Assembly (NCBI GenBank): GCA_032358165.1
Contig: JAALGY010000002.1
Coordinates: 238,973 to 302,972 of the forward strand
DNA from: Diplosphaera chodatii
Lineage: Eukaryota; Chlorophyta; Trebouxiophyceae; Prasiolales; Stichococcaceae
Direction: 5' to 3'
Length of the DNA stretch: 64,000 nucleotides
Shown: positions 32,526-53,960 of the stretch, piece after piece
How positions within the stretch are numbered: position 1 is the first letter of the stretch
Layout: each line of letters starts with the position of its first letter
Translations under genes and position numbers: made by a program
The notes under the pieces: generated by a model
What the model was told of the DNA's origin: nothing
Database searches by the model: none
The model's input: only the letters and a program-made list of their open reading frames with translations

Positions 32526-32695
32526 TTGTGGTAATGCAACTGTAAGGTTACACAGAGGCCAAGTAAAGTTCACACATGCTGACAAACGCGCGCCAAGCTT
32601 CGGGAGCAGCACCGAGACGTGCTGCACTTCAGTTCGCACACGCTGCTGATTGCAAGTGAGCTGTTTAGCAGCGGAGAAGCTCTCAAAAAGTTTCT
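32526..32695 (+). repeat. Split direct repeat A1 (left end of the retroelement)
   Basis: 170 bp, base-for-base identical to 39932-40101. It begins TTGTGGTAATGC and ends AAAAAGTTTCT. Confidence 0.95.
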
Positions 32696-32737
32696 TCAGC
32701 GTGTGCACGCTGCTGACGCTCTGTGGCGTCAGTTGCA

Positions 32738-35506
32738 ATGGCTGATCGAAATGCGCGGGCTCGAGGTCGGGCAGTGGCCAGAGATGCAGCCCCGCCAGCG
32801 GTGGGTCTGCCAATGATACTGGCGGCACGGGGCGCCGCGGTGTTCAGTGTGGCCCGGGTCAAGCAGGGCGCCGGGGAGGCCGCAGCGATGGTGGTCCGCG
32901 GCATTGCACAGCAGGACGTCACGGATCTGAACGGCCCACTGCAAGCGGCCGTGACAATCGAGCAGGAGGCGGGCGGCGCCGACAGGCATGAGATCATCAC
33001 CCTGCGGGGTCAGATTGCGCTGGAGCCAGCAAAGGCGCGGCGGTTCAATCTGGACTTGGCAGCGGGCCTTCGTGCCGCACCGCTTGTGAGGCTGCGCGCT
33101 GGCGAGTCGCTGGGCGAGCTGCCAGACGTTCCCGCTCCAGCGCCGCTGGCACAGCCAGCCATGCCCGCCGCTGAGCAACCACGACGCCGCCGGAAGTCGC
33201 GGTCCCGCTCACGCTCCCGCTCTCCGCGGCCGTTGCCTCGGCAGGGCGGGCAGGAGCCGCCAGCAATCGACTTGAGCGAGGACCAGTACCTCAACTCTGC
33301 GGAGCGCAAGGTAGGGGCTTCGTTGCTTAGCTTCAGCCTTGAGGCAGCCTGGGACACTCTCAGATCGCCCAGGCTTGTGGCTTACATAATCGAGAATGCT
33401 GCAAGCTCAAAGCCCGGTTGTCGGTGCAGATTGACAGCATTATACTGTAATGAATCACCATTAACTTCGTTTGCATGCTTGCATGCTGAGCGCTGATGCC
33501 TTCGATTAGTGTCCAGAGTTGTTCGTCGAGTCCAAGATTTCTTAATGTGTCGCAAGGTGCACAGCTTCACGCGCCACACTATGGTTGATGATTGTCATGT
33601 GATGGATCAGAATAGGCACGATGGCAGCACGTGTAAGCAGGCAGAGTCCTGGCGTGCTGTTGCATCACAGTAGGCACGATGGCAGCACGTGTAAGCAGGC
33701 AGAGTCCTGGCGTGCTGTTGCATCACAGTGTGCACGATGGCAGCACGTGTAAGCAGGCAGAGTCCTGGCGTGCTGTTGCATCACAGTGTGCACGATGGCA
33801 GCACGTGTAAGCAGGCAGAGTCCTGGCGTGCTGTTGCATCACAGGGTGCACGATGGCAGCACGTGTAAGCAGGCAGAGTCCTGGCGTGCTGTTGCATCAC
33901 AGTGTGCACGATGGCAGCACGTGTAAGCAGGCAGAGTCCTGGCGTGCTGTTGCATCACAGAGTGCACGATGGCAGCACGTGTAAGCAGGCAGAGTCCTGG
34001 CGTGCTGTTGCATCACAGTGTGCACGATGGCAGCTCGTGTAAGCAGGCAGAGTCCTGGCGTGCTGTTGCATCACAGTGTGCACGATGGCAGCACGTGTAA
34101 GCAGGCAGAGTCCTGGCGTGCTGTTGCATCACAGTGTGCACGATGGCAGCACGTGTAAGCAGGCAGAGTCCTGGCGTGTGGTAGCATGCTACGAAGGCAC
34201 AATGGCAGCTCACATGACGATAGTAGCCCTATAAGAGCAGTGAACAGCGGTTTGAAGGTGCTGTGCTGTGGGGTGCCCACATGGTCTCATTACCAGCGGA
34301 CATGACACATAGCAGTTGCCAGCTGTGCAGTACATCTATGAGTGAGCAAGGTGCACCTGGTTGCAGGAGGCTGTAGCGGTGCTCTATGACCGCGTCAGGA
34401 AGGAGTACGAGTGGTCGTGGGACACAGCTTGGGCGGCGACAAAGGCCGATTACAACCAGTTCTCGGAGAACAAGCAGCCGATGGCTATGGCCTTGATCAC
34501 TGCACATGAGGACAAGAAGAGGGACTTTCTACGGTGCGAACCGACCTGGTGGTGATTTGCAGCAGCATAAGCGCATGGCAGTGTCCTGCATCGAGTTGCA
34601 CAACCCTGGCCAAGCCAGTGATTGCATGCAGCTTCTGTCGGTCAGGTCGGTCCCAACATGGCAGCAGACATGACTAGCGTTGCGTGTTTAACACAGGGCG
34701 TTTTCGCCAGTGCAAATGTATGGGGAGGCAGCGGTCATGGCGGTGATGATCTTCTTCGGCATGTTGGTGGATCAGCTGGCTCTCACTTACATCACTGCAG
34801 CCAGGGTCGAGTGGGCTGCAGGCTGTCAGGATCTCAAGCGCGCAGCAGAAGCAGCAGTTCGAGCAGAATTTGCTAAATTCGGCAGGTCAGCAGGCAAGGC
34901 TGTGGCAGCAATCAACGCAGTCTCAGCACTGGCCCAGACATGGCGTGGAAAGCTGGCAGCAGCGGCACAGGAACAGGCGCGGCACGCGATGGATCAGGAA
35001 CGACACATAATGGCAATTCAACAGGTGACTACGGCTGAGCATACATAAACAAGCAGCCTTCAAGTGGACTTGGTTGGGTGCTCAAGACCGACTGCCATGG
35101 CAGCAGAGCCAGCTGTCCTTGGGGTCAATGGCTGAACCATGTACGGGCAGCTGATGCAGACATTGTGTCGGCGCAGACAGACACACTGACGAGGATACTG
35201 GCACGCGGGAGCGCCGGCGGCGCGGGCATGGGCGCAAGCGCCGGAGGAAACGCTTACCCCTCGGGGGGCCAGCGGCCAAGCGGCGGTGCATCGCGTCAGT
35301 ACGGCGGCAGGCCGCAGCCAGCAAACCTCATGCAGCAGGCAGGCATCCAGCAGGATGACGGATGTGTGTATTGGAATGGCAGCCAGGGGTCGTGCACGCG
35401 GCCCAGGTGCAACTACACACACACTGCGGGCGCAGCCTCCGATGCGCATAAAAAGTATGTGAGGACACATGGCGAGCCGCCGCGGCCGCCGCAGCGGCGG
35501 GCCTAA
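32738..35506 (+). CDS. Gag-like ORF1 of the retroelement, spliced, with CCCH zinc finger
   Basis: Probable nucleocapsid/gag protein. Exons: 32738-33310, 34367-34533, 34697-35024 and about 35177-35506 (TAA); phases agree. The start is the ATG at 32738 in the first frame after A1. The N-terminal part is Ala-rich and ends in an RRRRKSRSRSRSRSP stretch, a basic RNA-binding and nuclear-targeting type of sequence. The middle part is helical and charged (coiled-coil-like near KRAAEAAVRAEFAKF). The last exon is Gly-rich and carries a CVYWNGSQGSCTRPRCNYTH finger (C-x9-C-x4-C-x3-H). Intron 1 is 1,056 bp and contains the 58-bp minisatellite. The acceptor of the last exon is the least certain, because several AGs lie nearby. 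The stop is followed three bases later by the pol ATG. Confidence 0.75.
33615..34194. repeat. Minisatellite, ten tandem copies of a 58-bp unit
   Basis: Units begin near 33615, 33673, 33731, 33789, 33847, 33905, 33963, 34021, 34079 and 34137. Each has GCACGATGGCAGCACGTGTA followed by AGCAGGCAGAGTCCTGGCGT and a TGCTGTTGCATCACAG end. Copies differ by only one or two bases (for example GCAGCTCGTG in the eighth); the tenth degenerates after CTGGCGTG. The array lies wholly inside intron 1 of the retroelement ORF1. Confidence 0.95.
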
Positions 35507-35509
35507 AGC

Positions 35510-38321
35510 ATGGCGCCGCCTGCAGGCCAAAACGCCGCCCAGCAGCCAGCAGCCTCGGCAGAGGCAGCTGCAGACTGGGAGCCTGCAGGCGGCATGGAGC
35601 CGGCAACAGCAGCGCTTCTCGAGGCGGAGCTGGAGCTGGAGTTTGACCTTGCAGCAGTCGATCAGCAACAGATTGCTGCAGATGTCAGGGGGAGGGCACC
35701 CCCACAACAGGATGGGATAGGCATACAGCAGCTCGTGTCAGACGTGCAGCAATGTGACATGGTAGCAGAGGTGCTAGCAAGGCTGGCAAAGCATGGAACT
35801 GGGAACGATGTGGACGACACATCGGATGATGTTTGGTTGCAGCGGGTAGCAGACCTTGCATTATCAGATGATATGTTTCAGGCAGGTAACATCAGCCAGC
35901 ACATGCCAGCATTTGAGGCGTACTTCCAGGCAGCAGGGGCACTAAAGCGTGGGAAGGTAAAGCAGGTGCTGCGCCAGATCAAGCATGGGCTCAGCATAGA
36001 TTTCGTGCATCCTCGCTCAGCAGCACAGCAAGAGCATCCAAGGTTTGCCAGCAAGCTGCGGCAGGTGGAGCAGCTGCTGCAGCAGACAGTGCCAGCAGAG
36101 CAGATTACCAGCTTGCTCAACAGCGACATGCCACAGCGTGTGGTATTCAAGAACAGAGTGTCATGCCAGCAGCACGCGGACTGGGTCGGAGATCAGATCG
36201 GCGAACTGCTCAGAGTTGGAACGTTACGGGTGTGGCAGCAACAGTGGGGCCAGCCGGTGGTAGTCAGCGGCATGGGCGTGGTGCCAAAGGCTGGCAATAA
36301 GCTTCGTCTCATCGTGGATCTGCGCTACCTCAACCTCTTCGTGAGGTGCGCCTTGAGCAGCAAAGAGGCTTGCACAGAATGCTGCAATGCTTTCAGAGTC
36401 AGACCGACATCTGCAGTGCACAAGCTGATAGGAGCATGCATACATACAGACCGCTGACTGCACATGCATGTGGCATGAGCTGCAGGTACACACCATTCAA
36501 GTACGAGCGGCTAAAGGACGTACTGACGTACATCAAGCAGGGCGACGTGGTGGCCTCGACAGATATGAGGTCGGGGTACCATCAGCAGCCCATGGCACAA
36601 TCAGCGTGGCCCTATTTAGCAGTGCAATTTCAGGGTGTGGTGTACTGCTACACGCACATGTGCTTCGGCTTGGCATCAGCTTGTGAAGTGTACACCACAC
36701 TAATGGGAGAGATCTTGCGACCCTTGCGCAGCGGCCAGCTTGCTAGCGAACGCCTCACCACCATGATAGATGATACGCAGATTGCATACAGCAGCAAAGC
36801 ACAGGGCAAGTATCGGATGTATACCGTTGTGCTGCTGTATTCAGCATTGGGCTTCTTTCTCAGCTTGGACAAGTGCAGCTTGTTGCCACAACACAGCAAT
36901 AAAATTCTCGGACTGATCGTTGATGCACAGCAGCTTCGGTTTGTAGTGCCAGATGACAAGATCAGCAAGTTCAAGTCAGCTGCAGCATGGTTCCTTCAAC
37001 AGCACCACATATCAGCCAGACAGATTGCACAGCTGGCTGGGACAATACTTTCGTTTGCACCAGCAGTGGCGCTAGCGCCGCTATTTACGCGAGAGTTGTA
37101 TCATGCAGTCAAGGGAACACAGGCGAGTCCAGCTGCCGATGGCATGAGTTGTAGGCGATGAAAGAAAGCAGCCATATGACAGGGCCATGCATTTTGCAGG
37201 GCTGGGATCAGACCTTTGCCATTGGCGGCGGCGCACGAGAGGAAGTCAAGTTCCTACTGGAGAACATCGAAGCTATGAATGGTGAGCAGCGATGCCCAGA
37301 GCTGACACCTGCATAACACTGGAAGTGAATAGCCTGGGTGTCATTAGACGCAGCTGACCAGAGTGGCTATTGGGCCCTACTGTCAGCTGATGCATGCTGA
37401 CCGGAAGGTATGCCATTGATGATGGATTGATCCGCTGCAGGATCCAACATGTTCAAGCGAGAAGCTGCCGTGGTGGTCGTCGGCGACGCGTCGGAAACCA
37501 CCTATGCAGGGTACACTCCCAATGGCGAGCTGCCAGCGGCAATCCAGGTGCCCTTCACAGCGGCTGAGCAGCAGCGCATGGCGGCGCGGCAGTTCAGTTC
37601 GACCAGCCGCGAAGCAATCGGTCTGTGCAAGGTGGTGCATGTGGTGCTGGAGCAGCTGCCAGCGGAGCTGCTCAGCAGACAGAGAATACAATTCATCGGC
37701 GACAACCAGGGCTGCATATCGGTATTCCAGCATATGAGAGGGCAGCCAGAAATCGTGCAGCATATGAAAGCAATGAGGTTAGCTGTGGCTGCGGCCGACG
37801 CCGAGATAGAATATGTGTGGCAGCCCAGGGAGTCAGCGGAGATTCGTCAGGCAGATGCACTGTCAAAGGAGATCGACACATCAGACATCATCCTCAGCAA
37901 GCGTGTCACCTCACAGCTGTGTCAGAAGTTTGGGCAGCCCACCTGTGATGCATTTGCAACGTCTGTAGATGGCGGATCCAAGGCAGATTGCTGGTATAGC
38001 AAGTTTTTCGAACCGGGCTGCAGTGGAGTCAATGGGCTTCGTCATGCCTGGGGTAATAAGCAATTGGTGTGGGTGTTCCCACCGTTCGATTTGGTTGCAG
38101 TCAGCATCAAGAAGGTGCAGGAAGAGCAAGTGCATTGTGTCCTGATCGTGCCCCAGTGGACTCGGTTCTGGTCGGCAATGTTGGCGGAGTTGCCAGTGGT
38201 AGAGGAGGTGTTGCTGGCATACACTGCAGGACTGTATCGGTTGACGAGCAGAGTACCAAAAGAGTGGCATGGAAATCAGCCTAGGATCCCTTTGCGAGCT
38301 TTGCATATCAAGTACAAGTAA
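35510..38321 (+). CDS. Pol of the retroelement: reverse transcriptase, RNase H, methyltransferase-like domain
   Basis: Exons 35510-36345, 36486-37122, 37200-37281, 37441-38321 (TAA); every phase agrees, giving about 811 residues. The first ~220 residues are a Gln-rich helical region. The reverse transcriptase follows: VVPKAGNKLRLIVDLRYLN, motif A STDMRSGYHQQPM, FGLASA, and MIDDTQIAY in the YxDD position (Tyr replaced by Met, both Asp present). RNase H has VVVVGDASE, GDNQGCISVF and RQADALSKE, supplying the acidic residues. The last ~130 residues, with CDAFAT, a WYSKFF segment and VFPPFDLV, match the methyltransferase-like domain found after RNase H in DIRS-order elements. Intron 2 uses a GC donor (CAG|GCGAGT). 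The gene starts three bases after the ORF1 stop, so it may be made by reinitiation or from its own transcript. Confidence 0.88.
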
Positions 38322-38432
38322 TGTAAACGTGACCAGACACACAGATGTCCATTATACAGTGTGGTGTCAGTTGCAGTACTGGTTGAACATGCACACAGTA
38401 TGCTGCCTGATACATGCCTGCTATGTAGAAGT

Positions 38433-39725
38433 CTACTTCCGACGTCGCTTCAAATTGTTATGATGAGCATCGCGATTGAGGTAGCGATGCTGGATGATCG
38501 CCTCTGTCTTGTTCAATGCATGCTGGGTGATGGCTGACAAGCTGCAGCCTAGGCTGTCCAGCTGCTGCAGGCGGCCACGCCGAAAACCATGAGGTGTGAG
38601 ATCGCCACCTATGCCGAGCTGCTGCTGTCGCGCCTTCAGCATCGCATTGATGCTTGAACTGGACATGGGCTTGTCTGCGAACTGGCTGCGGCAGGGTGCC
38701 AGGGGCCGAGTCAGGTACCCAGACAGTGGCCTGCTGGCGAAAGCACTGTGCTCCAGCTGCAGCTGCCGCAGCCACCAGATGCAACACAGATGCTGATCGT
38801 CAGCGCTGAGTACCTCGACTGGGACGCGACCGCCGTTGGATGCCGGTGCGGTCTTGGTGCCGTCTGGCCTGAAAAACAGCTGGCTGCCAGGCTGGACATC
38901 TGCACCGCTGGTCATGAAATCGCTGACTGAAGAGCCATCGGTGAAGATGACGTCGCTGGTGCGCAGGCGGCCAGCATTGTCGCCTCGCAGGGCGGTGTGC
39001 CACAGGGTGCTGATCAGAAAGCCGTCACGAGCCGCCATCACTGCTGCTGCTGTGTGGGGTTCCGTGTCCTCGAGCATCACTGCCATGGCCTGCAGCAGCT
39101 GATCCACTTGCTCAAAGGTGACTGGAGCAGCAGCGCCCTGGCTGACGCCCTTGCTGCGCAGCTCATTGCCGTAGCCCTTCCGAAGCAGGCGGACGACTGA
39201 GCTGAGCACCGGGTTCCCCTGCTGCAGGTCCTCCTGCAGCATCTGGTGAGGGCCAGCACGCCCCTCAACATGCTCGAAGTAAGAGCTGAGGTGAGACAGC
39301 ATGGCTGCCAGTGATGCTGCAGCTGTAATCCGCTCGCCTGAGGCCGGTAGCTGCGAGCCAGCATGCTGGGGCAACCAGTGCTGGGTCAGGTACACTGCCA
39401 GCAGCTCTGGAGAGATGGTTGCCATGTTGCAGCCTGGGAAGTGGCATGCTAGCCAGGCCTGCAGCTCCGACACATGGCGTCGCTGTGCAGCAGCTGTTGC
39501 TGGCTTGACTGCCTGGGCCATGAGGGCAGCTGTGGCATCCATGCCATCGGTGACAGTCTGCAAGCTGGCCAGCCAGCTGGGGGACGTGTGCACCGCTGGC
39601 AGGTGGGCTGTTGGGTACCGCTGCTTCGCCAGCAGCAATTCATGTAGGAACCCGGCATCCGTCAGCGATGCCAGCTCTGCACTGGCATCCTGCAAGCATG
39701 ACACGACCGCTGATGACAGTGCCAA
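38433..39725 (-). CDS. Tyrosine recombinase of the retroelement, inverted orientation
   Basis: Lambda-integrase-type recombinase expected to insert the circular cDNA. Its 430 codons run opposite to pol and converge with it, 111 bases apart. Catalytic positions are visible: the first Arg in TALRGDNAGRL, the HxxR box in LTPHGFRRG, a further His in ITQHALNKTE, and the nucleophile Tyr in IIQHRYLN near the C-terminus, followed by a basic NLKRRRK tail. An N-terminal core-binding-like helical region (RHVSELQAWLACHFPG) precedes it. The frame's first codon is TTG at 39725 and there is a stop upstream, so translation may begin at the in-frame ATG near 39,540 or be joined to an upstream exon. The frame is free of stops, consistent with a functional enzyme. 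Confidence 0.85.
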   Translation of the reverse strand: MALSSAVVSCLQDASAELASLTDAGFLHELLLAKQRYPTAHLPAVHTSPSWLASLQTVTDGMDATAALMAQAVKPATAAAQRRHVSELQAWLACHFPGCNMATISPELLAVYLTQHWLPQHAGSQLPASGERITAAASLAAMLSHLSSYFEHVEGRAGPHQMLQEDLQQGNPVLSSVVRLLRKGYGNELRSKGVSQGAAAPVTFEQVDQLLQAMAVMLEDTEPHTAAAVMAARDGFLISTLWHTALRGDNAGRLRTSDVIFTDGSSVSDFMTSGADVQPGSQLFFRPDGTKTAPASNGGRVPVEVLSADDQHLCCIWWLRQLQLEHSAFASRPLSGYLTRPLAPCRSQFADKPMSSSSINAMLKARQQQLGIGGDLTPHGFRRGRLQQLDSLGCSLSAITQHALNKTEAIIQHRYLNRDAHHNNLKRRRK

Positions 39726-39840
39726 TCTTGAAGAGTTGAAAATTTGCCTCAGTCACAGCAGCTCAGAATGACTTGATCTGCTGGGCCTGAGGCCGCGCAG
39801 ACACGCGGTGCCTGCGCGCAGTGTTGGCCACTGAGTATGT

Positions 39841-39935
39841 GGGGTAAGGTGTAGGTTCCTAACTCAGGAGCCTGGCATCTTAACACGCCAATATCTCAGG
39901 GCTAAACAGCTCAGCACTTCAGCAAAAGGTGTTGT
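39841..39935 (+). repeat. Split direct repeat B1
   Basis: 95 bp, identical to 40249-40343. Its last four bases (TTGT) are shared with the start of A2. Confidence 0.95.
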
Positions 39936-40101
39936 GGTAATGCAACTGTAAGGTTACACAGAGGCCAAGTAAAGTTCACACATGCTGACAAACGCGCGCC
40001 AAGCTTCGGGAGCAGCACCGAGACGTGCTGCACTTCAGTTCGCACACGCTGCTGATTGCAAGTGAGCTGTTTAGCAGCGGAGAAGCTCTCAAAAAGTTTC
40101 T
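39932..40101 (+). repeat. Split direct repeat A2
   Basis: 170 bp, identical to A1 at 32526-32695. Fused directly to B1 through TTGT, which marks the likely recombination crossover. Confidence 0.95.
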
Positions 40102-40248
40102 CCCGCCCACCCGCCCTCTTTCTGGTTCGTTTGTTGCAGCCCGCAGGCGTCTGCAGTGTTTGCACGCTTACCTGCAGGCTGTCGTCGGGGTTGCACCTCG
40201 ACGCTTGGGTGTCCGTACCGCCTGTACGGAGATCCGGGAATCAGAGGG

Positions 40249-40343
40249 GGGGTAAGGTGTAGGTTCCTAACTCAGGAGCCTGGCATCTTAACACGCCAAT
40301 ATCTCAGGGCTAAACAGCTCAGCACTTCAGCAAAAGGTGTTGT
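40249..40343 (+). repeat. Split direct repeat B2 (right end of the retroelement)
   Basis: 95 bp, identical to B1, ending AAAAGGTGTTGT immediately before the right target flank CAACACCC. Confidence 0.95.
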
Positions 40344-44802: not shown

Positions 44803-47517
44803 ATGACACCCCATGCCAACCGCACTATGGGATGCAGGAAGCTGCTGCAGACAGCCACCTCCACCGTCATTTTGGATGTGTGGACCAACAGTCTGGCGGC
44901 AAACTTCACGCCGTCAGTGATCTGGGGCGGTGTTTTCAACAGCGGGGCCCTGGCATCTCTGGGCCCTCGCAAAGCCAACTGGACCGGCACCTTCCTGAAT
45001 GCCACCATGCACCTGGTGCGCACCCACCCTGCACTGAAACAGACTGCACTGTCGATCGTGGTGTTGGTGTGTTGACAAATCATCATAGCTTTACGATGCT
45101 GCAGTCAGCCGATGTGATGGGTTTGCATGCTGCAGAGGAGCTTCAATGGAAGCGATGTGGGGACTCGGCAAGACCCGGCACTCAACAGCACTGCCGGGTG
45201 GGTGTGCAGCCAGTTGCTGTGCATCCCTTGCAGTCACGTCTGTCATAACTTCGAACATTGGCACACCCAAGCTGGCTGACGAAGACCTTTCCCAGACATA
45301 TGTTTTGCGGTCCTGCAGAGCACCGCAACCATCTGATAGGTCACTGTCTGCTGGCGCAATTGCCGGCATTGCCATTGCAGCGGTGGTTTTTGCTGCTGCA
45401 CTAGCCGCAGGTGAGCAGTGCATCAGTTTGCGTGACATTCCGTGCACTATTGCTGTGCTTGCGCCCTGTTGATCCTGCACAGTTCGTAGCAGGGTCCGGG
45501 GTCCGTACTATCGATTGGCATCCCTGCATCTGAGCATAAAGCAACTTCACAGAGCTGATGCGAAGGCTGCTAGCTGTGCCTATGGGGTGGCTGACTCGTT
45601 TTGTTACAGCTTTGGTGCACCTGTACGTGCAGTGGCACTCTGGCTGGTGTTCAAAAAGGGCCTGGCTGCAAGGAGGCAAAGACGGCATGATGCAGCTGCA
45701 GCAGTGAAGACAGATGGCAGTTCCTCGTCAGAGAGCAGTGACATTGGGGGCGCTAAAAAGGCAGCCTCAGTGTCGGTGAGGCATCTGTGCATTATGCATA
45801 AAAGAATATTGGAAATGTCCCAACGACACACAGTAATCCCGAGAGTATGGCGAGTCTATAGTTGTCTGAAGACAGCGGTAGAAGGGCATGGCTCAACGCC
45901 TTGCGCATGGTGACTGACTTTGTGAGCGTGCTGCACATGCGCCGTGTCACCATCGTGGTTGGTGATCAGGTGATGAATGGCAGCACCGTGTGGAAGCCGC
46001 AGCTGCGCGCTGCTGACATCCAATTCAGCACCGATGTTGCCGGCAAGCGGATCGTTCTGGGCGGCGGAGCCTTCAGCGTGGTGAGCCTGGCTGCTGAGGG
46101 TGTATGCGCACAACAAATGCTGAGGGCTGCTGCCAGGCGAAACGGGACCTGCACTGGAGCTACATGCGCTGTTGACAAACATAACAACTGTTGCACGGGG
46201 TGGCAGGTGTACAAGGGAACGCACCTGCACCGGGATGTGGCCATCAAGTTGCTGCAACTGGATAGCAACTCTGCGCACGCTGTGCAGCGGGAGGTGCGGC
46301 GGCGCCTGTGTAACCTTTCAGCGGCTGCCATTGGCAGTTGAAAATACCGACAGCACGGGTGCTGGCCACGGTGGGATGGGCACACATCGCCATGCTGCAC
46401 CGTGCCAGCTCCTGACATCGCCCTGTGTCCCTGCAGGTGCAGCTGGCGGAGCGGGTCAGCCAAGACGCCAATGTGGTGCAAGTCTACGGCGCGGCTGCGG
46501 CGCACGACGGCCAGTCGGTGATGCTGGTCATGGAGCTGATGCAGGTGTGGGGTTGAATGCCGAACGTTTGCCGTTCTTGCGGGTGCCGTGCAGCTGCTCA
46601 GCAGCCCCCTAGTTATTGAACTGTATTCACATCAGCCTCTAGCATGCTATTTGAAACCGCCCATACGGGGGACCGCCCATACGGGGGTCGGCCGTGAAGG
46701 AGTCGAGCTGTTGTGACTTTCCTGCAGGGTGGGGACCTGCGCGCAGCGCTGGACGGGCCGGATGGGGCGCAGTACCTTTGGCACAACCGGGGGCCTGCCA
46801 TAGCAGCTGACGTCGCGCGAGGGCTGGTGTACATCCACACCACCGCCGTGGTGCACAGGTGAACCTGACCTGCATACGTGCGCATCCGGCTCAGCCCATG
46901 GCCTGAGTCCGATGCCATGCGGACAAGAGCCTCTTCAGGCGTTGTTAAGCACCTGCAGTGTCAGGCAGCGCCAGCGGGTACCGACAACGTGTCACGCGGT
47001 CACGATGCAGCATGGGATGCGTCTGCAGGGACCTCAAGTCCAGCAACATCCTGCTGGCGGCTGACGGGCGCACAGCTAAGGTGGCGGACATAGGGTCGGC
47101 GGCAATGATGGATGCGGGTTACATATCACAGCACTTTGGCACGCTGGCCTGGGCCGCGCCGGAGCTGCTGCTTGCGGACAGGAGCAGCAAGCTCGATGCG
47201 AAGGTAGCCGCATGCATGCTGGCCCCCCAGATGCCTGACCAGCTCAGCTGCCAAGGACCCTTGTGACCATGTCGCTGTGATGTGGAGACTTGAGTGCGCT
47301 CCTGCATCCTTCGTAGGCGGATAGCTACTCATTTGGCGTGGTGCTTTGGGAGCTGATCACGGGGGAGATTCCGGTGCGTGGCAACATGCGGCCTGTGCGG
47401 GTGCCAGAAGAGTGCCCCGCGGCGGTGGCAGCGCTGGTACAGCGGTGCATGGCCGCGTCGCCGGCAGAGCGCCCCAGCGCGGATCAGATCAGCAAGCAGC
47501 TGCAGCGGCTGAGATGA
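44803..47517 (+). CDS. Receptor-like protein kinase of the TKL group, intact copy
   Basis: Type I membrane kinase. The N-terminal exon (ATG 44803 or an acceptor just upstream) encodes an ectodomain with NWT and NAT glycosylation sites. A transmembrane helix (GAIAGIAIAAVVFAAALAA) is split by an intron and resumes at 45633 as VALWLVFKKG with a basic stop-transfer. Kinase exons: one ending 46080, then 46207 to about 46307, 46437-46544, 46728-46858, 47029-47203 and 47317-47517 (TGA). Motifs: LGGGAFSVVYKG (P-loop), DVAIKLL (Lys), VVHRDLKSSN (catalytic loop), VADIGSA where DFG is expected, TLAWAAPELL (APE), SYSFGVVLWEL and ERPSADQ. All key catalytic residues except the Phe of DFG are present. The HRDLKSSN and GTLAWAAPE motifs favour Ser/Thr kinases of the TKL/RLK type. 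The exons between the ectodomain and the membrane helix are less certain. Confidence 0.85.
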
Positions 47518-51173: not shown

Positions 51174-53960
51174 GCCGCCATTATATCTGATGGAACCCCT
51201 TCACTTCTTTGATAACCTGGTCGTGCCTGACTGAAAGCATGCAGCCGCATGGTTACGTGCATCACAGCTGCGCGCCTGCCCTCAGCCGCTGCAGCTGCAT
51301 GCTGACCTGGCCCGCGCCGGGGCGGTCAGCTGACGCCACGGCCATGCACTGCTGTGTCAGCGCCGCCACTGTTACAGGGCACTCCTCCGGCACGTGCACA
51401 GGCCGCAGGTTGCCACGCACTCGCTGCCCAGCGGGGTCTCTCTTGTGACCAGCTCTCACAGCACCACGCCAAACGAGTAGCTGTCAGCCTGCACATATTG
51501 CACATGCATAGTGAGGGTCTGATAAGGTGGCCACAGGCATCCCTGGCAGCTGCTCATTTGATAACGAAGGCTTCCCGGGGGCCAGCAGGCATACAACTAT
51601 CTTCGCATCGAGCTTGCAGCTCGTGTCCGTAAGCAGCAGCTCCGGCGCGGCCCAGGCCAGCGTGCCAAAGTGCTGCTTCTCATCCGTGTGTGCTGCCGAC
51701 CCCATGTCCGCGACCTTGGTTGTGCGGCCGTCAGCCGCCAGCAGGACATTGCTGGACTCAAGGTTCCTGCAGACGCATCCCATGCTGAATAATAACTGTG
51801 CGCTGTCTGAGTACCAGGTGCTGCTATGGACGATGACATTCGACAGTGCTCCTGCTCCCATGACTGGGACTCGGGCAATGAACACAGTGCTGCGTCAAAT
51901 GTACACACCAGCAGACCGGGTCGCCTGTGCACATCGCCAGCGGTGTGCATGTAAACCAGCCCGCACGCGATGTCAGCTACCATTGTAGGGCCCCAGTTGT
52001 GCCAAAGATAGTGTGCCCCCTGCGGCCCGTAAAGCGCTGCGTGCAGGTTTTCACCCTGCAGGAAAGTGACCACAGCTCGACTCCTTCACGGCGAGGCTGT
52101 TCTGAGCGTTCTCACACGACATGCTTGAGGTTGCTGTGGCGGCAGGGTTAATGCCAATCGGAGGCCGAATAGCTGCACGGCCTCCACGACAACAGCAGAC
52201 GCAGGTTATCAGCCTCCGCACCTGCATCAGCTCCATGACCAGCAGCAGCGACTGGCCGTCCTGCGCTGCAGCCCCGCCATAGACCTGCACCACATTGGCG
52301 TCCGGCTGACACGCTCCGCCAGCTGCACGTGCACGCTGCGCATGAGGTGCAATGTCAAGCCTGGCGCAGCACAGCACGGATGCTGAAACTGCATGACAGT
52401 GTCTGGTGCACAGGGGTCTGCCAGCTGGTGCTGGGTCACCAGCAGAGACACAGCCGCCGCCGCACCTCCCGTTGCACAGCCCTTGCCAGGCCGCCGTCCA
52501 GCTGCAGCACCTTTGCAGCCACATCCGAGTGCAGGTGCCTCCCCTTGTAGACCTGCACACTGGACAGCAGTATTGCATGAGCTGGCCCTCAGCGACATAT
52601 AGAGAAGCACTGCACGCCCTTCTCTGTCAAGAGCAGGAGTACTTCACGCAGCTGTTGACATGGATTTCCAGCAACCAAACCCACCGTGCCAAAGGCTCCG
52701 CCGCCCAACACAATGCATTTGCCGGCGGTGTCAGCGCTGAACTGGACGTCAGCATCGCGCAGCTACGGTGTCCAACCGGTGCTGCCATGACACCTGTTAC
52801 TGACCATGACAGAGTTCAACTTTTGCATAACAATGATCTCATGAGCAGTGCCTCTGCCCCCGGTATTGCCCCACTGCACGTTGTAAGGACCTCGGGCGGT
52901 TCTATATCGTCGTCAGTGAGTTTTGACGTGTAGTCTGTGCCAAATTCCATACAAGCATGGCTCACCAACATCATGGCCTCTTCTCCAAAATCACCGCCAC
53001 TGTTATCGGTGCTGTCCGGAGTCGAATTAACATTGACCGCTGGATCTGCCGCCGCTGCCACATCTTGCTGTTGCCACCTCGCAGCTGAGCTCTTTTTGAG
53101 CACCAGGTACACTGTCACTGCGGGAAAAGCACAACGCTGTAAGCAAGATACCTCGATTTATCACAATCAGGGTGTGGCCCTCAACTACATTGCACATCGG
53201 CAACTCGGCTGGAAGCAGCAGTAATGCATGGCATGTGTCTGTACTGCACTGGTGCACAAAGATTGATGTAGAGGTGGAGAAGCGGATGTGTGTAATGGAA
53301 ATACATCGTGCTCACCTGCGACGAGTGCATACGCAGCTGCAACCACCACCGTTGCGTTGCAAGCATGATGACGGCAATGGCACCAGCAGACAGGCAGTAA
53401 CCTGATCGTGTTGCTGACCGGCAGAAAGACGAGGAAATGTGTGCAGAGGCCTACAGCACCATAGTTGGTGATTCACCAGGGTGCCCAGTGAAGGTTGGTA
53501 GGCAGTGGGATTATTATCGGCCGAAAATAATTGCAATGGCCGGTAGTAATTGACACCAACCCTGAAGTGCTTGTGACTTGCGGGTCTTGCAGAGACCCCA
53601 TGGCAGTTCCAGCGAATGTCCTCTGCAGGATACACACCAGAAGACCCATCAGGTTACTGCAGGGTCAACGAGCCATCACAGCTCCTGCGATGCATCAAGG
53701 GCAGGGGCAGGAGCGCATCACTGAGTGTATCCCGCAGCAAAGCAGGGTGGTGGCACACCAGGTAAATGGTTGCATTGAGGAAAGTGCTGCTTCAAAGATT
53801 CGAGGGCGTCGCCGGCAAAGACGTTATCCCAGACCAGTGATGGTGTGAAATTGCTCGCCTGGCTGTTGGTCCATACGTTCAAAAGTACTGCGGGGGCCGC
53901 CGTTTGCAGCAGCTTCCTGCACTAAGCATCAGGGGTGGTCTTCATCATCTAGTATCTGCT
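51150..53960 (-). repeat. Right arm of the kinase-gene inverted duplication
   Basis: Inverted homologue of 44,820-47,640, separated from it by a spacer of about 3.5 kb. Similarity covers ectodomain, membrane helix, juxtamembrane and kinase exons and about 100 bp beyond the stop. Confidence 0.8.
51265..53960 (-). pseudogene. Receptor-like kinase pseudogene, inverted copy
   Basis: Same exon order as the gene at 44,803-47,517: ectodomain near 53,960-53,760, membrane helix near 53,400-53,330, juxtamembrane near 53,120-52,970, P-loop (CIVLGGGAFGTV) near 52,750-52,690, VYKG/VAAK exon near 52,560-52,440, then the C-lobe. Lesions relative to the intact copy: a net frame shift within the membrane helix (about 53,355-53,372); a one-base deletion at about 52,303 in the exon matching QLAERVSQDANVV; the HRDLK catalytic loop changed to HRNLE (Asp codon to AAC at 51763-51765, Lys to Glu); the preceding donor GT changed to GC; and the Trp of GVVLWEL replaced by TGA at 51458-51456. 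DFG reads DMG. The product cannot be a full kinase; a transcript could still be non-coding or regulatory. Confidence 0.85.

Follow-up and report, generated by a model that had tools for sequence, protein, structure and literature searches.

The locus at positions 32526-40343 of the window, the 64,000-nucleotide stretch of Diplosphaera chodatii DNA analysed here, raises the question of what kind of mobile element it holds and how an element so rich in introns could be copied through RNA. We conclude that it is very probably a complete, recently inserted tyrosine-recombinase retrotransposon of the PAT group, with a proposed RNA cycle; this judgement does not extend to the role of a stem-loop array in its first gag intron, which is weighed separately. 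The literature, as far as it is available, describes few PAT elements whose recombinase is inverted, and their replication has been modelled, not observed.

The element, called C2 below, has the complete A1...B1A2...B2 arrangement of split direct repeats, with gag and pol on the forward strand and the recombinase (YR) on the reverse strand (Table 1). The first-pass annotation had described repeat pairs of 170 and 95 bp without a mismatch, and both pairs are identical along their whole length; B1 and A2 overlap by TTGT. Both ends read TTG in C2, in a second full-length copy in the genome (C45, locus L022) and in a solo A-B unit (L023), with unrelated host bases beyond, and the flanks of these three insertions point to TTG as the probable crossover core. 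The same junctions place the proposed boundaries, 32526 and 40343, correctly to within this core and give a net insertion of 7,814 bp with the core counted once. An older solo unit, L025, has TTG at its left end and TTT at its right; L024 and L026 have ambiguous ends. The insertion had also been called very recent: it is indeed young, its repeats being identical, and "very recent" can be given as 0 differences in 265 positions, with a rule-of-three upper bound of 1.1%. The A (window 32657-32669) and B repeats share a 13-nt inverted match, TGAGCTGTTTAGC, by which the RNA ends could pair; a match of at least 12 nt was reached in 1 of 300 shuffles, and 12 nt are kept in C45.

Table 1. Features of the element C2, in window coordinates.
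Feature	Position	Strand	Basis
A1, left terminal half of the split direct repeat	32526..32695	+	170/170 identical to A2
TTG crossover core	32526-32528 (left end), 39932-39934 (B1/A2 junction), 40340-40342 (right end)	.	comparison with the junctions in C45 and solo L023
gag exon 1, beginning MADRNARARG, with an Arg/Ser-rich stretch	32738..33310	+	open frame, donor AAG/GTAGGG
gag intron 1, 1056 nt	33311..34366	+	GT..TTGCAG; similarity stops here in C45 and P0017 too
Array of a 58-bp unit in 9.7 tandem copies, stem-loop CAGCACG-(6)-CAGG-(6)-CCTGG-CGTGCTG	33616..34178	+	TRF
gag exon 2	34367..34533	+	in phase; tblastn to C45, alignment with P0017
gag intron 2, 163 nt	34534..34696	+	C45 and P0017 read through its place with no gap
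gag exon 3	34697..35024	+	comparison with C45 and P0017
gag intron 3, 152 nt, GT..GCGCAG	35025..35176	+	acceptor before 35177 joins without a gap to P0017
gag exon 4, CCCH zinc finger CX9CX4CX3H at 35363-35422, then stop	35177..35506	+	alignment; Pfam zf-CCCH sub-threshold
pol exon 1, ATG 3 nt past the gag stop	35510..36345	+	89% identical to C45 at the amino-acid level
pol exon 2, reverse transcriptase core, MIDD replacing YxDD	36486..37122	+	Pfam RVT_1 3.9e-9
pol GC-AG intron	37123-37199	+	exons join in phase
pol exon 3	37200..37281	+	splice joining
pol exon 4, RNase H (model residues 6-144), then C-terminal region	37441..38321	+	fold match
Tyrosine recombinase, main exon	38433..39689	-	Phage_integrase matched by 8 of 9 aligned sequences; R256, K300, H388-x-x-R391, Tyr of RYL (numbering of the 439-aa frame)
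B1	39841..39935	+	95/95 identical to B2
A2	39932..40101	+	170/170 identical to A1
Possible 8-codon first recombinase exon, inside A2	39960..39983	-	tentative; sole C2 candidate under the script limits
B2, right terminal repeat	40249..40343	+	95/95 identical to B1

A search for other copies, as had been proposed, covered the 85.6-Mb assembly (55 contigs; match counts are lower bounds) and recovered at least one further full-length copy, C45. The recombinase, the pol N-terminal exon and the RNase H exon each gave at least two matches, the reverse transcriptase (RT) exon at least two strong and at least five weak ones, and the gag exons at least seven, confined to C2 and C45 among the matches listed. 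The A repeat (at least eight matches) and the B side (at least nine) resolve to C2, C45, the solo A-B units L023-L026 and the fragments L027 and L028. L023 is well kept; it agrees with C2 at 398/411 aligned positions (27 gap columns) and with C45 at 363/409, which makes C2 the nearer copy. L024, L025 and L026 are older. Within L023, the start of B is partly duplicated (~26 bp, near 1428-1453 of its reverse complement). Four loci with weak RT matches and open frames of 477-1398 aa (L033-L036, on contigs C15, C26, C9 and C33) are probably other retroelements. When flanks were joined in search of empty sites, those of C2 matched only its own two flanks in this assembly; those of C45 and L023 gave 14 matches. 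Four of these were the flanks themselves, at 100%; the other ten were diverged matches to C45 flank sequence, at 71-87%, and by coordinates none of the ten spans a join (surroundings inspected for two of them). The genome also carries a nuclear gene for the Rubisco small subunit, matched at two places; its nearest PDB entries are 7jfo, 8q04 and 1gk8, from Chlamydomonas and Chlorella, which points to a green alga as the host.

The repeats of C45 are likewise identical, over 171 and 96 nt. Between the two full copies, pol differs with a dS of 0.36 and a dN/dS of 0.10 (37/28/160 differences by codon position) and YR with a dS of 0.30 and a dN/dS of 0.18 (36/18/72), values that indicate purifying selection on both genes. 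Since the copies stand 0.30-0.36 apart in dS and yet each has identical repeats, they represent two long-parted lineages that both inserted recently. Local DNA identity between them is 93% in the first 200 columns, 32-72% over gag and its introns, and 90% from 35624 on. The gag of C45 is thus either swapped or hugely diverged, giving a mosaic-like copy with flanking parts ~90% identical; it probably arose when elements recombined with each other.

The element had been described as PAT-like and Kangaroo-like. The Kangaroo element of Volvox carteri was reportedly described by Duncan et al. in 2002. The PAT assignment is supported: C2 is a young insertion whose coding frames are open, it combines A1-B1A2-B2 repeats with an inverted recombinase, its pol carries RT (by Pfam) and RNase H (by fold), and a tyrosine recombinase stands in place of an integrase. 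Split direct repeats are the mark by which the PAT group is recognised in the accessible part of PMC4157794. According to the same source, the YR of Kangaroo is inverted, its internal repeats separate MT from YR, and its Gag has no zinc finger. The inverted recombinase, opposite to pol in both C2 and C45, agrees with this, as do the green-alga host and the PAT group, but the two other features do not support the label Kangaroo. The internal repeats B1A2 (39841-40101) lie outside YR (38433-39689), distal to it, in two of two full copies, and the CX9CX4CX3H finger is present in all three gag sequences compared (C2, C45 and the relative P0017), where the Pfam zf-CCCH match is sub-threshold. C2 is therefore a PAT-group element of variant layout, set apart from Kangaroo by the published description. 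It could still be a true Kangaroo as in Volvox, given the inverted recombinase, the host and the split direct repeats (PMC4157794, as accessible), if the repeats had moved and earlier descriptions had overlooked a gag zinc finger; the repeat order in both copies and the finger in all three Gags make this rather unlikely.

Other described elements share parts of the variant layout. In Daphnia pulex, an unnamed PAT form (PMC4157794, Figure 1G) has the same split repeats and an inverted YR, and its internal repeats sit close to the 3' end, immediately upstream of the terminal repeat there; its host is an animal, the accessible text describes neither introns nor a stem-loop array for it, and the likeness to C2 is one of layout alone. 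Toc3 and other algal PAT elements share the split direct repeats and algal hosts, while Toc3 differs from Kangaroo in YR direction and is given a Gag without a zinc finger (PMC4157794 and PMC8226300, accessible parts). The Cafeteria Ngaro elements resemble the C2 family in their A1-[ORFs]-B1A2B2 structure and in having solo A-B units, which the available text of PMC8547959 considers to be left by repeat recombination; unlike C2, they belong to the Ngaro superfamily and to a flagellate host.

The coding capacity of C2 agrees with the first reading of the locus. Its gag exons join in phase to encode 465 aa, provided that intron 3 ends at 35176. Two phase-0 acceptors lie beyond 40 nt in this intron, before 35087 and before 35177; the former keeps the phase, but the latter gives the gapless fit to P0017, a metagenome protein that is a 52% identical gag relative. 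An acceptor at 35159 was ruled out by a frameshift. We also considered that C45 might lack intron 3, its frame staying open there; this is made improbable by an in-frame, stop-free 159-nt GT..TTGCAG stretch at the same place, and because its removal joins the same residues as in P0017, C45 probably has the intron. P0017 is without introns 2 and 3, and its similarity ends at the intron 1 junction, which suggests that its gene keeps intron 1. Across C2, C45 and P0017, intron 1 thus seems to be present in 3/3 gag sequences, intron 3 in 2/3 and intron 2 in 1/3.

The pol exons likewise join in phase, to 811 aa. The 67% identical protein P0012 runs without a gap across all three pol intron junctions; its source may include RNA assemblies, so the absence of introns in P0012 could be due to splicing. 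With C45, P0017 and P0012 being gapless at intron sites, five of the six splice junctions of C2 are supported by relatives. A protein search with pol gave five matches, none carrying a family name. In DIRS-type elements, a methyltransferase-like domain is expected after RNase H; the C-terminal part of pol exon 4 had no Pfam match, and the match lists of its structure model were filled by RNase H. At the pol start (window 35504-35512), C2 has ATG and C45 has GTG at the same place, so that initiation may differ between the copies or begin further in.

On the opposite strand, the recombinase frame is open from 39752 to 38433 (439 aa), as had been reported. The match of C2 to Pfam Phage_integrase scores 24.8 bits (E 2.1e-5), just below the 27.1 cut-off; the domain is matched by 8 of 9 aligned recombinase sequences, in which the catalytic residues align, P0003 departing at the C-terminus. 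A PDB sequence search returned weak integrase matches, and the structure model (mean pLDDT 41.6) was left out of the fold search. The first in-frame Met of the frame comes late, and TGCAG, immediately ahead of 39689, could be a splice acceptor. The relatives P0001 and P0004 both start with a Met two residues before this site, and predicted starts in other relatives vary. C45 offers three candidates for a short first exon, one of them at the same place as the tentative exon of C2. Among 16 pattern stretches in viral contigs and 32 in genome contigs, no relative was confirmed with a recombinase profile.

This anatomy suggests the following cycle. RNA running from A1 to B2 would be reverse transcribed by the element's own RT-RNase H, and a closed circle would be restored on the internal B1A2 block as template. 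The recombinase, expressed from the opposite strand, would then recombine the B/A junction of the circle with a host TTG; apart from the TTG core, the target would not be duplicated by the insertion. Gag and pol would be translated from spliced mRNA, and unspliced RNA would be the genome that is copied. The stem-loop array of gag intron 1 might tag this unspliced RNA, a step much less certain than the rest of the cycle. The element could instead now move mainly as DNA, the recombinase excising and reinserting a circle and the introns persisting without any packaging rule. Persistence of introns in both copies, conservation of the recombinase and the finding of two full copies (a lower bound) would all suit such a mode. 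We consider it very unlikely as the main route, since RT and RNase H are under purifying selection and since copies so far apart in dS, each with identical repeats, argue for repeat renewal at insertion. The precise absence from C45 of gag intron 2, present in C2, would also suit RNA-mediated loss, although the gag of C45 belongs to another lineage.

The copies of the array unit in C2 are 98% identical among themselves (TRF), and intron 1 of C45 carries 8 monomers (pattern with mismatches) in units of ~100 bp. Both arrays share the motif CAGCRYG-N-CAGG-N-CCTGG-CRYGCTG, and outside them the similarity of the two introns is limited to one 10-mer. When the genome was scanned for the exact stem-loop pattern, all 13 matches lay within intron 1 in gag sense (8 from C2, 5 from C45), and the reversed pattern had none; as the pattern was derived from these arrays, the finding is its absence elsewhere in the genome. 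Compared with one type of C45 unit, the C2 unit has the same base at 26/26 stem positions and at 4/12 others (Fisher 1e-5); with the other type, the counts are 23/26 and 6/13 (Fisher 0.008).

Over nine distinct units, 113 of 117 cells (96.6%) form standard pairs, and one pair shows a two-sided change, C-G to U-A, in 3/9 rows, probably a single event. Shuffles reached the observed paired percentage in 3 of 500 cases and the covariation score in 1 of 500; they reached the changed-pair count in 393 and the pair-type count in 476 of 500. The folding energy of array units was no better than that of shuffles (z -0.6 to -1.1), and Rfam and tRNA scans of the window gave no match. In viral contigs, the stem-loop pattern occurred in three stretches with one match each, taken as background.

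On a simpler account, the array has no packaging role: it is a mere minisatellite, with slippage caused by its hairpins, or a spacer whose folding brings distant splice sites close to each other. We consider this somewhat probable: the C2 copies are near-identical, as in any expanding minisatellite, their folding does not exceed that of shuffles, and intron 1 is far longer than the other five introns (77-163 nt). Less easily accommodated are the confinement of the motif to two arrays genome-wide, by exact pattern, and the fact that arrays with periods of 58 and ~100 bp share the stem and differ in loops and linkers. These observations would fit a packaging or retention signal: binding of the stem-loops, with their asymmetric bulge, by the CCCH-finger Gag would restrict encapsidation and reverse transcription to unspliced RNA. 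The array is kept in unspliced RNA alone, which is why it could serve as a tag on that RNA for Gag binding or reverse transcription. We regard this reading, which the probable retention of gag intron 3 by C45 makes somewhat less likely, as unlikely; slippage or the approach of splice sites is both simpler and likelier. In the titles and abstract openings of the accessible literature on YR retroelements, no intronic stem-loop array or packaging signal is mentioned. If real, the signal would have arisen independently of the one that retroviruses carry downstream of their splice donor, while corresponding to it, and the survival of introns in such a retroelement would be explained.

The family is low in copy number but includes two recent insertions as well as solo units, and its core is clear; of the six introns, five have junctions supported by relatives that lack the intron. 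A single alga would allow two questions to be tested: by what means an intron-rich retroelement keeps its genomic RNA from being spliced, and whether the signal for this is the conserved stem-loop array.

Elsewhere in the window, positions 46464-47236 and 51568-52302 form a long imperfect inverted repeat in four pieces, 80-90% complementary, around ~4.3 kb with one ORF of at least 180 aa between the arms; it is perhaps another mobile element or an inverted duplication.
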